Source: Prevotellaceae bacterium
GTDB taxonomy: Bacteria; Bacteroidota; Bacteroidia; Bacteroidales; Bacteroidaceae
Reading direction: 5' to 3'
DNA length: 64,000 nucleotides
Assembly: GCA_029226205.1 (NCBI GenBank)
Contig: JAQXXT010000079.1
Location: 22,325-86,324 of the forward strand
Below are positions 40,656 to 46,778 of this stretch, piece after piece (position 1 is the first letter of the stretch; each line of letters begins with the position of its first letter). A program made the position numbers and the translations under genes. The notes beneath the pieces are model-generated. The model did not search any database. It was not told the origin of the DNA and saw only the letters and a list, made by a program, of their open reading frames with translations.

Positions 40656-40683
40656 ATCCCATTCCACCGTTGCGGAATGGGAT
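40656..40683 (-). terminator. Intrinsic terminator of the double TPR/HTH regulator gene
   Basis: ATCCCATTCC ... GGAATGGGAT followed by eight T on the minus strand. Confidence 0.85.
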
Positions 40684-40694
40684 AAATCATTTCT

Positions 40695-43600
40695 TTACAG
40701 ATGCTTTTTGCGGATGCGGCTCTTGCGAAGTCGGTAAGCGGAAGGAGAGATATCGAGGGTCATCGTGATTTCATCGGGAGTCTCGCCTTCATGTTCGAGA
40801 ATGAGAAAGAACATCTCCGACGGTGTGAGATCGTGATAATCCTTGCTAAGCGACTTGATGAAATCGAGGTCCAGACTCATATAGTAATCGAGGAGACAGA
40901 CATAGTCCTCTTTTTTCCATTCCTTGACACATTCCCCGTTCTTCCAGCGTTTATAGAGCACTCTGCCACGGTTGAAGAGCTGCTCGTGGCGGTCTTTCAG
41001 TTCGGCGAGCTCCTTTTGCCGTTTGTCGATCTCGTCTTCATCGGAAATCACGGCAGTCTGCAGGTCATTGAGGATCGTCTGATAGCGCACACCCTCGTCG
41101 TAGAGCTGCGTGATCTTCCGTTGTGAACGGCGTTGGCGCCAAAGGAGAAGGATGACGACGAGGATACAGATGATAACGTCGATGAGAAGAATATAAACCA
41201 ACTTGTTTTTCAAATGACCATAGATAGAGTCAGAATCGAGGTCGTCTTGTATCTGTTGGATATTATTGTCTTGGAGGTGTTCGTTGAGCTGTTCGTTTAC
41301 CGAGTCGAGCTGTTGGGTTAGTGCCGCCACTTCCTCGTTGCGGCCGTCATCCTGCAACTGCAGAATCATACATTTCAGAATATCTGATTTCGTACGAAGG
41401 TCCCTTGTACTCAACGCTTTCTTCCACAGGCTGTCGGCCCGTTGCCGGCTGCCACTCTCATGGTAATAGATGGCCAGGTTTGCCTCCAGAATAGGCGACG
41501 GATGAATCTTGTCGAGGTTCCCCATCTGTTGTTGCAACTTACGGCGCAGGTCATTACCGGCGATGGCATAGATATCGGTGACGATATGCGGCCGCTCGAT
41601 CAATGGAATTAGGTGGATGTCGTTGAAAGTTTTCTCCGCATAATATTGTGCGCTGTCATTGCGGCCCGTATGATACCATGTAGACATAAGTGCGTAATAT
41701 CCCAGTGCTCGGAGATAACCACTGCCACTCTCCCCGGCGATCTTCATGAGTTTCCGGGCATAGCCCTGTGCTGTCACGCCGTTGTCGGACACGAGGTTGA
41801 TGTTCGCGATTCGCTCATAGACCTTATCCAGAATCATGTAGTAGTGATGCCGCTCGCCTATCGCTTCCGCCTTTTTCAGATAAGGCATGGCATATTTGTA
41901 ATCGCTGATCTTGCAGGTATCCGACATGATAGCCCCTATATAATAATAGGTGTCAGCCAGCAGCGAGTCGTCATGATCCTTGAAATAGGCGATACTGGTG
42001 TTCAAGGGTGCCGTGGGGTTCGGTGAGACGGACAGGCGGAAGCGGGTCTTCGCGTTCAGCAGATGATACATGGCTTTGTCGCCCTCTCCCATCGCCGTCG
42101 TGTCTAGCCGTTGCAGGCCAGCCATGACGGAGTCGTCCTCATTGCACATGCTCAGCATAGAGAGATGGTTGAGTGCCGTCGATGTCTCCGAGTGGTCCTG
42201 ACAAGCGACGAGGGCGGGAGAAAGGGTGATCAGGGCAATTACGACCGTCAACGCTTTCTTCCGCAGACGGGAGCGGCGGACACGCAGCGCGGTCTCACTG
42301 ATCCCCATGATATGAATGATCTCCGCCTCGCTCTTCCCCTCATGTTCCAGGATAAGGAAGAACAGTTCCGAGGGCGTAAGGCCCTGCCACTGACGGACAG
42401 CATCGAGGACGAAGTCGAGGTCTACACTCATATAATAATCGATGAAATCAATGAAATCACTCTTTCGCCAGGCAACGGTCACTTGATCTTTGCGGATATC
42501 CTCATAGAGTTCACGGCCATGGGAGAAGGTAAGGGCGTGACGGGCTTTCAGCTTCTCCAGCGCATTATTCATCATCGAGATATATTCTTTTCCCGTGGTC
42601 TGCCGTCTCTGCAGCTGTTCCTTGAAAGTCTTCATATTCTCCAGATCAGACAACAGCAACTTTTCCCTGACACGGTCCTGGTGTCGTCTTCTGAGATAGA
42701 AGAGCAGAATACAAGCGATAACGACGAGGGCAACGACAGTGATTGTCCAGCCGGTACGGCGGTAACCTTGTTGATATTGGTCATTGGCAAGATTGTCCTG
42801 TACCTTTTGAATATTATTATGTTGGAAAATGAGGTTGAGGCTGTCACTCTCGATGATCTGCTGTCGGCTGAGTGCCGCCACCTCTTTCCATTGCTTGTCG
42901 GCTTGCTTGCATTGGATCATATCTTCGAGGATGGCGACACGGGCAGAGATATCACCTTTCTTCAACGCCTCATGCCAGAGGCTGTCGGCCCGCTCATGAC
43001 TTCCACTCTCATCATAGAGACACGCAAGGTTATCCATTATCAGCGGCTCGCCGTTGGTCCGTACAAGTCCCTCAAGCACGCCGATGGCTTCCTTACGGTA
43101 TTCCGGTCCCAGCATCATGTACATATCGTTCAGGTAACTCGGTAGCTCATTCTTTGGCATGTATTTCTTTAAGGCATAACATTTCCGGGCATAGAATCGC
43201 GCGCTGTCCGTCTTTCCCATCACGCCATATACGGCGACGAGCTGGTGGTTGGCACAGGCTTGAAGATACTTATTGCCGCTGTCATCGGCGATCGTCTTCA
43301 ACTTTTGGGCGTAAGTTAGGGCCGCACGAAACTGGTTGGAGAAAAGATTGATATTGGATAATTTTTCGTAAACCTTATCCAAAAGGAAGATATAATGGTG
43401 ACGCTCGGCGATGACCTGTGCTTGATGGAGACTGTTGATGGCCGGATTATACTGGGTGACACGACCCGTATCACAGGCTACGGCACCCTTATAGAACCAG
43501 GCGTCGGCGAGAAGGGAGTCGTTGCGGGCCGTCTTCCCGAAGATAGCGATAGCGTGGTCGATGACGGCGTCAGGGAGAGCCTTACGGTTCAGACGGTAAC

Positions 43601-43823
43601 GGGTCTTGACAGTCAGTAGGTCATAAAAGGCACGGTCTCCTTCCTTCAGCGCTGCCGTATCGACCTTTTCGAGTAAGGCCATGGCGGAGTCGTCCTCGTT
43701 ACGGATACTCAACTGGCTGATCGTTGCCAGCATGCCGTCACGCGGTACCTCATAGTGGCTGCAAGACTGCAGGGTCAGGAGGAGAAAGAGCAGTAGAATG
43801 CTCAGTGTAGTTCTCTTGTTCAT
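40695..43823 (-). CDS. Fusion of two paralogous membrane TPR-TM-HTH regulators
   Basis: Two repeats of lipobox/signal-TPR-TM-coiled coil-HTH (GLTPSELFFLILEHEGKSEAEIIHIMGISETALRVRRSRLRKK; DLTPSEMFFLILEHEGETPDEITMTLDISPSAYRLRKSRIRKK); start moved to MNKRTTLSIL. Confidence 0.85.
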   Translation of the reverse strand: MNKRTTLSILLLFLLLTLQSCSHYEVPRDGMLATISQLSIRNEDDSAMALLEKVDTAALKEGDRAFYDLLTVKTRYRLNRKALPDAVIDHAIAIFGKTARNDSLLADAWFYKGAVACDTGRVTQYNPAINSLHQAQVIAERHHYIFLLDKVYEKLSNINLFSNQFRAALTYAQKLKTIADDSGNKYLQACANHQLVAVYGVMGKTDSARFYARKCYALKKYMPKNELPSYLNDMYMMLGPEYRKEAIGVLEGLVRTNGEPLIMDNLACLYDESGSHERADSLWHEALKKGDISARVAILEDMIQCKQADKQWKEVAALSRQQIIESDSLNLIFQHNNIQKVQDNLANDQYQQGYRRTGWTITVVALVVIACILLFYLRRRHQDRVREKLLLSDLENMKTFKEQLQRRQTTGKEYISMMNNALEKLKARHALTFSHGRELYEDIRKDQVTVAWRKSDFIDFIDYYMSVDLDFVLDAVRQWQGLTPSELFFLILEHEGKSEAEIIHIMGISETALRVRRSRLRKKALTVVIALITLSPALVACQDHSETSTALNHLSMLSMCNEDDSVMAGLQRLDTTAMGEGDKAMYHLLNAKTRFRLSVSPNPTAPLNTSIAYFKDHDDSLLADTYYYIGAIMSDTCKISDYKYAMPYLKKAEAIGERHHYYMILDKVYERIANINLVSDNGVTAQGYARKLMKIAGESGSGYLRALGYYALMSTWYHTGRNDSAQYYAEKTFNDIHLIPLIERPHIVTDIYAIAGNDLRRKLQQQMGNLDKIHPSPILEANLAIYYHESGSRQRADSLWKKALSTRDLRTKSDILKCMILQLQDDGRNEEVAALTQQLDSVNEQLNEHLQDNNIQQIQDDLDSDSIYGHLKNKLVYILLIDVIICILVVILLLWRQRRSQRKITQLYDEGVRYQTILNDLQTAVISDEDEIDKRQKELAELKDRHEQLFNRGRVLYKRWKNGECVKEWKKEDYVCLLDYYMSLDLDFIKSLSKDYHDLTPSEMFFLILEHEGETPDEITMTLDISPSAYRLRKSRIRKKHL

Positions 43824-43856
43824 CAAAGCTATCTTGTCATTTTTGTTATGCGACTG

Positions 43857-43864
43857 CAAAGTTA
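43857..43864 (-). promoter_or_regulatory. -7 element TAACTTTG for the regulator gene
   Basis: TAnnTTTG on the minus strand ~35 nt upstream of the ATG at 43823. Confidence 0.5.
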
Positions 43865-44055
43865 CGAAAAAATGTTGGTTTCGTAACAAACTGATGCTTC
43901 TAATGTTGATCATTTTTGTTACAATATCATACTTGAACAGTAGTATGATATCCATTACAATCATTTGTTATTCAACGTTTTAAGTTGCATTTTCGTTTTG
44001 TTGCGCCCTTGAAAAATATTGCTTTCCCTCGACAGCTTTTCTCATCAACAGATTG

Positions 44056-44063
44056 TAATTTTG
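44056..44063 (+). promoter_or_regulatory. -7 element TAATTTTG for the divergent peptide gene
   Basis: TAnnTTTG ~55 nt upstream of the 44117 ORF. Confidence 0.4.
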
Positions 44064-44116
44064 CCAATGTTTCAAGTCCGATACGGGCAGTAAGATGAAT
44101 TAAGATACTTAGAAAT

Positions 44117-44320
44117 ATGATGATTAAAATGAATAAGAAAACTTATGTAAAACCTACCATTGAGGTAGTTCGTTTGGCAGGAGAGCAATTGTTGGAAGCG
44201 CTCTCTACGACAATTAAAGAAGATCCCATTCCTGGTGGCGGTGATGCCAAAGGCTTCACGCCCGAAACGGAGGATTGGAATAATGACCAGCAACAAGACG
44301 ATGACCAGTCGTGGCGATAG
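44117..44320 (+). CDS. Short peptide with N-terminal MNKKTYVKPTIEVVRLAGEQLLEA motif
   Basis: Shares the MKKxYVxPxxEVV N-terminus with 46781-46981. Confidence 0.6.
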   Translation: MMIKMNKKTYVKPTIEVVRLAGEQLLEALSTTIKEDPIPGGGDAKGFTPETEDWNNDQQQDDDQSWR

Positions 44321-44379: not shown

Positions 44380-46778
44380 ATGAAATTGAAAAGATTAACG
44401 ATTTGGGTCGCAATGACCTTCTGCCTGCTGATGGTTTCCATCAAAGGGATAGCGGCAGACACAAATGTCTATAAGCCATTCACGGATGATCAAGGCATCT
44501 CGTGGACATATACAACGTGGGACGATAATGGTACCACGGAGGCTAGACTGTGGAAGTGTGATTATAGTGGTACGGGGACTGTCACGGTGCCGGAAAAGAC
44601 AGATGGTGGGCTGACGATTTCCTCAATAGCTTCTGATGTAAAACATTTGAATGATTTCTTTACGTCAGCTTGCAAAGTGATCATGCCATCAACGCTCGTT
44701 GAAATAGAAGAAAAAGGGTTGGAGAATTCCTTAATGACTTCACTGGATTTTTCCAAGTGTACAAATCTGAAGGAGATTCCGCAAAGTATGTGTAGCGTTT
44801 GTCCCAACCTTGTGTCTGTAATATTCCCTTCATCATTAAAGAAGATAGGAGTAAATGCTTTTGTCCAATGTGAGGCATTAGCGTCAGTGGAAATTCCTGG
44901 CAGTGTAGAAACTATTGGTGATGCTGCATTCATAAAGTGCAGTGGGTTGACAAAAGTGAAGTTTGACGATGCTGATACTCCAAAGTTGACCATTGGCAAT
45001 AACGCCTTTGGAGAATGTCCGGGTCTGACGGATATCACTTTTGGCACAAATGTGAAAGTTATTGGAAACCTTGCTTTTCAGAGTTCTGTTATAAAAAATG
45101 CAATCAAATTCAATGAGGGCTTAGAAGAAATTGGTGACTTCGCTTTCAACAGTTGCCAGATAAAAAAAGGTGCTCTTAATCTGCCTAGTACGCTTAAAAA
45201 GTTGGGAGATGTGCCTTGGGGATCAATGTATCCTGCTGGTTCTGATAAATCCGTAGGTTGGTATTTCAACAATGATCTTAGTTTGCCAGATGGTTTGGAA
45301 TATATTGGTAAATATTCATTCTTAGGTGCAAAGAAAATCACAAAGGAGCTTAAACTTCCGAGTCATTTGAAGCATATAGGAATAAATGCATTCTCAATGT
45401 ATCCTGTTGTTGGTGAATTAGTGATTCCTGCATCTGTTGAATCCATTGATATGGGTGCGTTTAATAATATGCCATTCTTGACTAAGGTCTCATTTGAGAG
45501 TGGTTCTAAATTGACATCATTAGGAGATAAAGTATTTGCTAACGACTATAATCTCCGTTATATCGACTTGACAGCAGCAACCAGCCTTAGCGCGTTCACC
45601 TGTTCGAGGAGTAGCGGTGTCTTTCAGAATCTCCCCATCTACACGTTGGTGTATCTTCCGAGCACATTTTCAGATATCAAGGTAGATAATTTCATTTATG
45701 AGAATGGAGGCCAGAAGACTTGTTATAACTTCTTGGTTTATGATACAAATAAAAACTATCTCCCGGCAACGCAGAAAGCTGCCAACAGTTATACTTATCT
45801 GACGAATAACATGCCGGAGGAGGAGATTGCCACCATCGATGCGCAGTATGCCGCCATGCCGACGAACCGCGGCTGTGACTACGAGATTCCCTATGCGTTC
45901 ACGGCACAAAGCGCTACCTATTACCGGGCTTTCAAGACGGGCACGCTGACCACCATCTCTCTCCCCTATTCCGGCGGAGAGCTGCCTGTCGGCGTGAAGG
46001 CTTTCAAACTCGTCAGCACGTTCCAGACCACGGAGTCATACCATTGCCACAGTCATCTGTTCCTGCCGGACAGAGCGTCTCGGAAACACAGAACAGTGAA
46101 GAATTGGAAGGCGCATATGTCATCGGCGGTGTCACCAATTATGGTAAGGATGGCGTGGAACCCTATCTGCGTACCTATTCCTCTTCAGGTAGCAACCAGA
46201 TAGTGCCGCGCAATGAGGCCGTATTGCTGAAAGCCTCCGACAGTTACGAATGGGACAAACATAATAACCAGCTCGTTTGCTACGTCAAGCTCGATGAGGC
46301 TGATCAAGTTTCTCAGAAAGCCCTGCCTACTGTTCCTACGGCTGATTATACAGAGACCAAGATTAATATGATGAGTTGGGGAGAACCTGGAAAGACGACG
46401 ACAACGGGCGACAGTAAGTATGACGCCAAGTGCCGTTTCTATCATCTCGCCGCCGTCGATTATGGCAAATCATGGGATATGGCATTTTATTATGGTAATC
46501 CGAATAGTTCGGGACCATTTACGTTCCCGTCTTCCAACCGTACGTCCGCATTTCTGGCTATTCCCTATCTGGCACCAATTAATCAGGCAAAGGAACTGTC
46601 GCTTAGCGAGCTCCTCTCTTACTATATCGGTCAGTCTACGTCTATAGACCAAAAAGTCATCGACAGTAATCATCCGATACAGATCTATACGATTGATGGC
46701 CGCCGCGTCAACCGCCCTCAAAAAGGCATCAATATCATCCGTTCCGCAGAGGGGCGTGTCATTAAAAAGATTTATTAG
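44380..46778 (+). pseudogene. BspA-like leucine-rich-repeat (LRR_5) surface protein, interrupted by a frameshift at ~46036-46044
   Basis: LRR repeats in ORF 44380-46203; C-terminus (IQIYTIDGRRVNRPQKGINIIRSAEGRVIKKIY) continues in another frame (46044-46778). Confidence 0.8.

Follow-up and report, generated by a model that had tools for sequence, protein, structure and literature searches.

Here we describe an open reading frame of 1,042 aa, on the minus strand at 40695..43823 of a 64,000-nucleotide stretch of DNA (the window), in which two complete copies of a membrane regulator are joined end to end in one open frame. The source of this fusion is a single MAG, 87% complete and in 124 contigs, of an uncultured Prevotella-like bacterium. 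The fused open reading frame as assembled is very probably real, and the explanation we favour, at a probability of roughly 0.55, is a deletion-fusion of a tandem duplicate, encoding a linked transmembrane one-component regulator that would act on a divergent LRR gene. What is new is the fusion; the family itself is an ordinary kind of protein, common in Bacteroidaceae as single proteins of ~520-560 aa.

One open frame with two complete modules

The fused frame contains its terminal stop only, as compared to the 50 and 52 stops of the other two frames on the same strand, and GC by codon position (0.57/0.34/0.63 and 0.55/0.33/0.65 for the two halves) is coding-like in both. From the most distal start (43964, minus strand) an ORF at 40695..43964 stays open for 1,089 codons; that start lies upstream of the promoter described below and was ruled out on this ground. 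The ATG at 43823, ~33 nt 3' of a Bacteroidota -7 box, gives a protein with the N terminus MNKRTTLSILLLFLLLTLQSC, a lipoprotein signal sequence, and since the promoter sits between 43964 and 43823 and the lipoprotein signal begins at 43823, we regard the latter, which is also the coordinate given in the first-pass annotation, as the credible start.

Modules 1 and 2 share 39% identity over 491 aa (E=1e-113). A family HMM made from 10 relatives, with the window's two modules left out, matches the protein twice, at residues 2-524 (profile positions 3-523, 451 bits) and at residues 525-1041 (profile positions 6-523, 366 bits), and because it aligns at full length to both halves, no part of a module has been lost and no linker is present. 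This two-module structure is far beyond chance, and it bears out the first-pass annotation, which had read the region as a single ORF with two complete paralogous modules.

40695..43823, minus strand: fused ORF, two complete TPR-TM-HTH regulator modules (frame, module alignment, hydropathy, profile matches)
42264..43823, minus strand: module 1, residues 1-520, the profile match reaching residue 524 (AF2 pLDDT 77)
40695..42263, minus strand: module 2, residues 521-1042 plus stop (module identity, profile match)
42255..42263, minus strand: junction codons CGG AAG AAA (RKK), belonging both to the end of HTH 1 and to the n-region of the module 2 signal

The join reads CGT CTG CGG AAG AAA GCG TTG ACG, or R L R K K A L T, so that module 1 does run, as had been claimed, straight from its SRLRKK end into the signal of module 2. 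The stop codon, spacer, start codon and promoter of stand-alone family members are all missing here, a pattern that a deletion within a tandem pair leaves and that is hard to get from a single-base error. The AAGAAA at the join codes for the KK at the end of the HTH and equally for the KK that should follow the Met in a signal peptide; since it fits both, we propose that AAGAAA is perhaps the micro-repeat at which a deletion would have occurred.

Domain anatomy and predicted topology

Both copies have the same predicted layout of lipobox, periplasmic TPR, TM, coiled coil and HTH. Hydropathy picks out four hydrophobic segments (residues 5-23, 359-377, 524-542 and 875-893), and taken together with charge, the placement of K and R fits an N-in/TPR-out/HTH-in arrangement twice over. 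The charge pattern is therefore in keeping with the earlier prediction of a protein that would cross the membrane repeatedly, with two HTHs inside and two sensors outside. The signal of module 2, likewise as first described, is now internal, its lipobox LVAC being present within residues 524-542.

43761..43823, minus strand: N-terminal signal with lipobox LQSC, residues 1-21 (sequence, hydropathy; Cys invariant in alignment)
42900..43742, minus strand: predicted periplasmic TPR domain 1, residues 28-308 (AF2 helices, PDB TPR matches, Pfam TPR in most family members)
42693..42749, minus strand: TM helix of module 1, residues 359-377 (hydropathy 2.67; K/R 2 before, 6 after)
42255..42374, minus strand: HTH 1, residues ~484-523 (C-terminal sub-HMM 101.9 bits; AF2 three helices, pLDDT 83-90)
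42198..42254, minus strand: internal former signal / TM with lipobox LVAC (Cys541), residues 524-542 (hydropathy 2.06; K/R 7 before, 0 after)
41340..42182, minus strand: predicted periplasmic TPR domain 2, residues ~548-828 (homology to module 1)
41145..41201, minus strand: TM helix of module 2, residues 875-893 (hydropathy 3.38)
40701..40820, minus strand: HTH 2, residues ~1002-1041 (C-terminal sub-HMM 85.6 bits)

The column of the lipobox Cys21 is invariant in the family alignment. An AF2 model of module 1 from four sequences (pLDDT 77) places a TPR superhelix at residues 28-308, then a long helix that includes the TM segment, followed by a coiled-coil helix, and its helices at the C terminus would fit an HTH; a fold search returned TPR proteins, including LGN and Rap/NprR, and sequence profile searches also led to TPRs. 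AF2 of the full-length fusion, run without an alignment, was uninformative (pLDDT 44). Both HTH scores fall in the range of stand-alone relatives on the same sub-HMM (60-123 bits). Pfam matches on the HTH are weak (Sigma70_r4_2 0.005, GerE 0.012), so that DNA binding by the HTHs is likely but is something that we infer from their sequence.

Promoter, terminator and candidate operators

The fused ORF is bounded by one promoter-like site on its 5' side and one terminator-like site on its 3' side. These sites, the divergent LRR gene and the family's usual place beside exported-protein genes go beyond the first-pass annotation.

43857..43890, minus strand: Bacteroidota-type promoter, TTTG (43890-43887), 22 nt, TAACTTTG (43864-43857)
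40656..40683, minus strand: terminator-like site (intrinsic), a 12-pair stem followed by seven T, directly 3' of the fused ORF
43861..43887, no strand: inverted repeat GTTACGAAA-N9-TTTCGTAAC, candidate operator overlapping the regulator promoter
43924..43951, no strand: inverted repeat ATATCATACT-N8-AGTATGATAT, candidate operator between the regulator and the divergent gene
44056..44064, plus strand: -7 box TAATTTTGC, pointing towards the small divergent ORF and the LRR gene

Among 41 rows of stand-alone relatives, in which a few loci are counted twice, 37 carry a TAnnTTTG box 57-147 nt (mostly 75-115) before the lipobox Cys codon, as compared to 12 of 288 coding bins of equal length. Module 2 lacks a -7 box in this interval, and TANNTTTGY does not occur at all on the minus strand inside the fused ORF. 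The two perfect inverted repeats lie within 132 bp, for which mononucleotide shuffling gives p ~0.003. Across the window there are 43 TANNTTTGY sites against 13.7 expected, and the motif is a useful promoter marker in the source genome.

Relatives are unfused

Matches to the family were found in 88 of 399 genomes in a genus search (E<1e-20), in 19 of 320 genomes, each at least 88% complete, in a second genus search (E<1e-40), and in 157 of 400 genomes, from 20 of 30 genera, at the family level (E<1e-15). No second fusion occurred in the 399 and 320 genus genomes or the 400 family genomes, the open frames among the matches listed being at most 680 aa, as compared to 1,090 for that of the window, and given that there is no fused relative, selective retention of the fusion is unsupported. 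A contig profile search with the full fusion gave no match; with a 4-row alignment it returned only two loci, both in the genome G061, and none when viral contigs were searched.

The first-pass annotation had suggested looking for unfused genes in relatives, and these exist in two forms. The closest relatives are two separate, unlinked genes (L086 and L087) of G061, an uncultured Prevotella MAG (ERR1855550_bin.24), whose products are 35-39% identical to module 1. A 46-member tree puts them in one clade with modules 1 and 2 (100/100). The inverted repeats of the window are not shared with G061, and a common operator was sought between the two and not found. The grouping of the two modules as sisters is weak (92/41), so that a direct tandem duplication is no more than likely. 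Tandem pairs that are still unfused occur in the genomes G076 (207 bp apart) and G454 (152 bp apart), and tandem duplication is thus a known route in this family. When a transporter gene was used as a synteny anchor, no family regulator adjoined it in the best matches opened (G234, G332, G330 and G262). Membership of DUF6377 (PF19904) was ruled out, as there was no match above the Pfam gathering score: only 1 of 12 members gave a hit, at E=0.003, and the window modules gave none.

The divergent neighbour

44380..46203, plus strand: BspA-type LRR_5 exported protein gene, probable target (PF13306, E=4e-48)

The frame of this LRR gene, whose LRR part lies in 44380-46203, is apparently broken near 46040 and carried on in 46044-46778 on the plus strand. 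The break may reflect a pseudogene, phase variation or a base error, and with the adjoining gene frameshifted in this way, errors or decay may affect the locus. The continuation, in the other frame, ends in IYTIDGRRVNRPQKGINIIRSAEGRVIKKIY and resembles a C-terminal sorting domain.

The nearest upstream neighbour is divergent in 26 of the 34 family members with flanks, and a simple signal-peptide rule scores 21 of these 26 as exported, as compared to 81 of 220 other listed ORFs in the same stretches, a contrast that is only indicative because the background ORFs include spurious ones. LRR genes are divergent to regulators in G107, G277 and G361 as well, and the gap between regulator and divergent exported or surface gene is ~200-400 bp (e.g., L078, L079, L080, L108 and L118). 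The family seems to be a group of Bacteroidaceae regulators, little described so far, that act locally on surface-protein genes; a limited literature search returned no description of it. The fused protein is probably a one-component regulator that acts locally, on the divergent gene for a surface protein. Inspection by eye of the ORFs scanned near the fused gene picked out no SusC/SusD-like gene.

A small ORF of 67 aa, MMIKMNKKTYVKPTIEVVRLAGEQLLEALSTTIKEDPIPGGGDAKG..., lies at 44117-44320 on the plus strand, between the divergent promoter and the LRR gene, and resembles the short Y-x-KP-type peptides of Prevotella. A similar ORF, MEKKKHYIKP..., stands near the regulator in L072.

How the fusion may have arisen and what may speak against it

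We infer a deletion mechanism, a stable chain, its topology, DNA binding, dimer function, target and ligand along the following lines. First, a transmembrane one-component regulator of Bacteroidaceae would have been duplicated in tandem, and a deletion, perhaps between AAGAAA micro-repeats, would then have taken out the stop codon of copy 1 along with the spacer and the promoter and start codon belonging to copy 2. Transcription from one promoter to one terminator would yield one chain, starting with a lipid-anchored N terminus, periplasmic TPR 1, a TM segment, and a cytoplasmic coiled coil with HTH 1; the old signal sequence of copy 2 would serve as a membrane-entering helix, to be followed by periplasmic TPR 2, TM, coiled coil and HTH 2. 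Such a chain would be a built-in (pseudo)dimer, whose TPRs might sense an envelope or surface signal and so set how both HTHs bind DNA, the target being the regulatory region common to the fused gene and the divergent BspA-type LRR gene, possibly its inverted repeats. More tentatively, we speculate that the two periplasmic sensors and two DNA-binding heads are independent, in which case the protein would be a covalent pseudo-heterodimer in which two envelope signals are brought together at one promoter and a former signal peptide is reused as an internal membrane helix.

Alternatively, one ORF might give two proteins, either by Lgt and signal peptidase II cutting at LVAC-Cys541 or by an internal start at ATG 42308 (MGISETALRVRRSRLRKKALTVV...). 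The internal lipobox and its charged n-region are intact, the lipobox Cys is conserved in all aligned relatives, and the in-frame ATG at 42308, 18 codons before the h-region, would provide module 2 with a charged N-terminal region. A lipobox 540 residues into a chain would however be an unusual substrate for signal peptidase II, the fused ORF has no internal promoter box, and ATG 42308 falls in the conserved HTH (IMGIS) and, being part of it, needs no start function to explain it; we consider two products unlikely. We place rather less weight on the possibility that the fusion is a recent non-adaptive mutation and a dead end, with module 1 alone, or neither module, working and module 2 decaying. 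The fusion is unique among the genomes searched, and module 2 has the longer branch (1.09 vs 0.63 for module 1). Decay of a second copy does occur in the family, since in the tandem pair of G454 (G454:C12, L100 7879-9502) a stop before the HTH splits the downstream copy into 450-aa and 83-aa parts, the upstream copy being intact. Decay sits poorly, though, with 1,042 codons free of stops or frameshifts and with a module 2 that scores 366 bits at full length and 85.6 bits on its HTH, within the range of stand-alone relatives.

The remaining explanation is an artefact of assembly or base calling, in which the tandem genes are still separate in the living cell and an intergenic stretch or a base is missing from the MAG. 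The fusion is known from one MAG, the adjoining LRR gene is frameshifted near 46040, and all relatives are unfused; the first-pass annotation had held that relatives with separate genes, together with agreeing reads from this strain, would contradict a fusion, and of these two the former is what we find. But a one-base error cannot delete a whole spacer, promoter and start codon, and both module ends are preserved to the codon at the join. Removing one A would make module 1 end in RKKR-stop and leave module 2 with the n-region SAEEALTVV, which has no positive charge and is thus no signal peptide, and the repeat of ~6 nt (AAGAAA), the only shared sequence proposed at the join, should not be long enough to lead a de Bruijn assembler astray. 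To an artefact we accordingly give little credence, and a true deletion-fusion within a tandem pair is the reading that we retain.

Comparison with known systems

Membrane-bound one-component regulators are numerous in Bacteroidia but poorly understood, above all as to whether dimers are their active form and by what means an HTH held at the membrane gets to DNA. A covalent double copy that arose naturally would provide a fixed-stoichiometry test of dimer function, and the fusion would also test whether the internal lipobox signal is cut or is used as a TM segment. The wider family, divergent from genes for exported proteins (BspA-type LRR etc.), seems to be made up of local switches for surface proteins.

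The fused protein is most like the unnamed TPR-TM-HTH regulators of Bacteroidaceae, which have the same order of lipobox, TPR, TM, coiled coil and HTH and are usually divergent from an exported-protein gene, as the fused ORF is from the LRR_5 gene (44380, plus strand). Stand-alone regulators have a single module with its own promoter box, whereas the fused ORF has two modules, and at 1,042 aa as compared to ~520-560 aa its product is a variant, two members joined, rather than a plain member. Transmembrane transcription regulators (TTRs) are likewise one-component, act from the membrane and are frequent in Bacteroidia (PMC10269533); the fused protein differs from them in that a single chain carries two complete sensors and two HTHs. 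SusR of B. thetaiotaomicron (BT3705) is a Bacteroidetes-specific membrane protein with a periplasmic sensor and a cytoplasmic C-terminal HTH, and SusR-like regulators control surface-protein genes and are predicted to bind as dimers (PMC3878776). Compared by description only, its layout of periplasmic sensor and cytoplasmic HTH is like that of the fused protein; SusR consists of one module, and the sites predicted for it are direct repeats spaced 67-77 bp from centre to centre (PMC3878776).

A Pfam scan of the fused protein found no HisKA/HATPase_c or receiver domains, and a hybrid two-component system (HTCS) was ruled out for want of a kinase or receiver domain. The Porphyromonas FimS sensor kinase (NF053520) weakly matches one relative, L025, over the TPR-TM part at residues 162-383 (E=3e-4), but FimS is a kinase and the fused protein has no kinase domain. 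The match to the TPR superhelix of Rap/NprR (RNPP) is a likeness at the level of fold only; those TPR regulators are cytoplasmic, whereas the TPR of the fused protein is predicted to be periplasmic.
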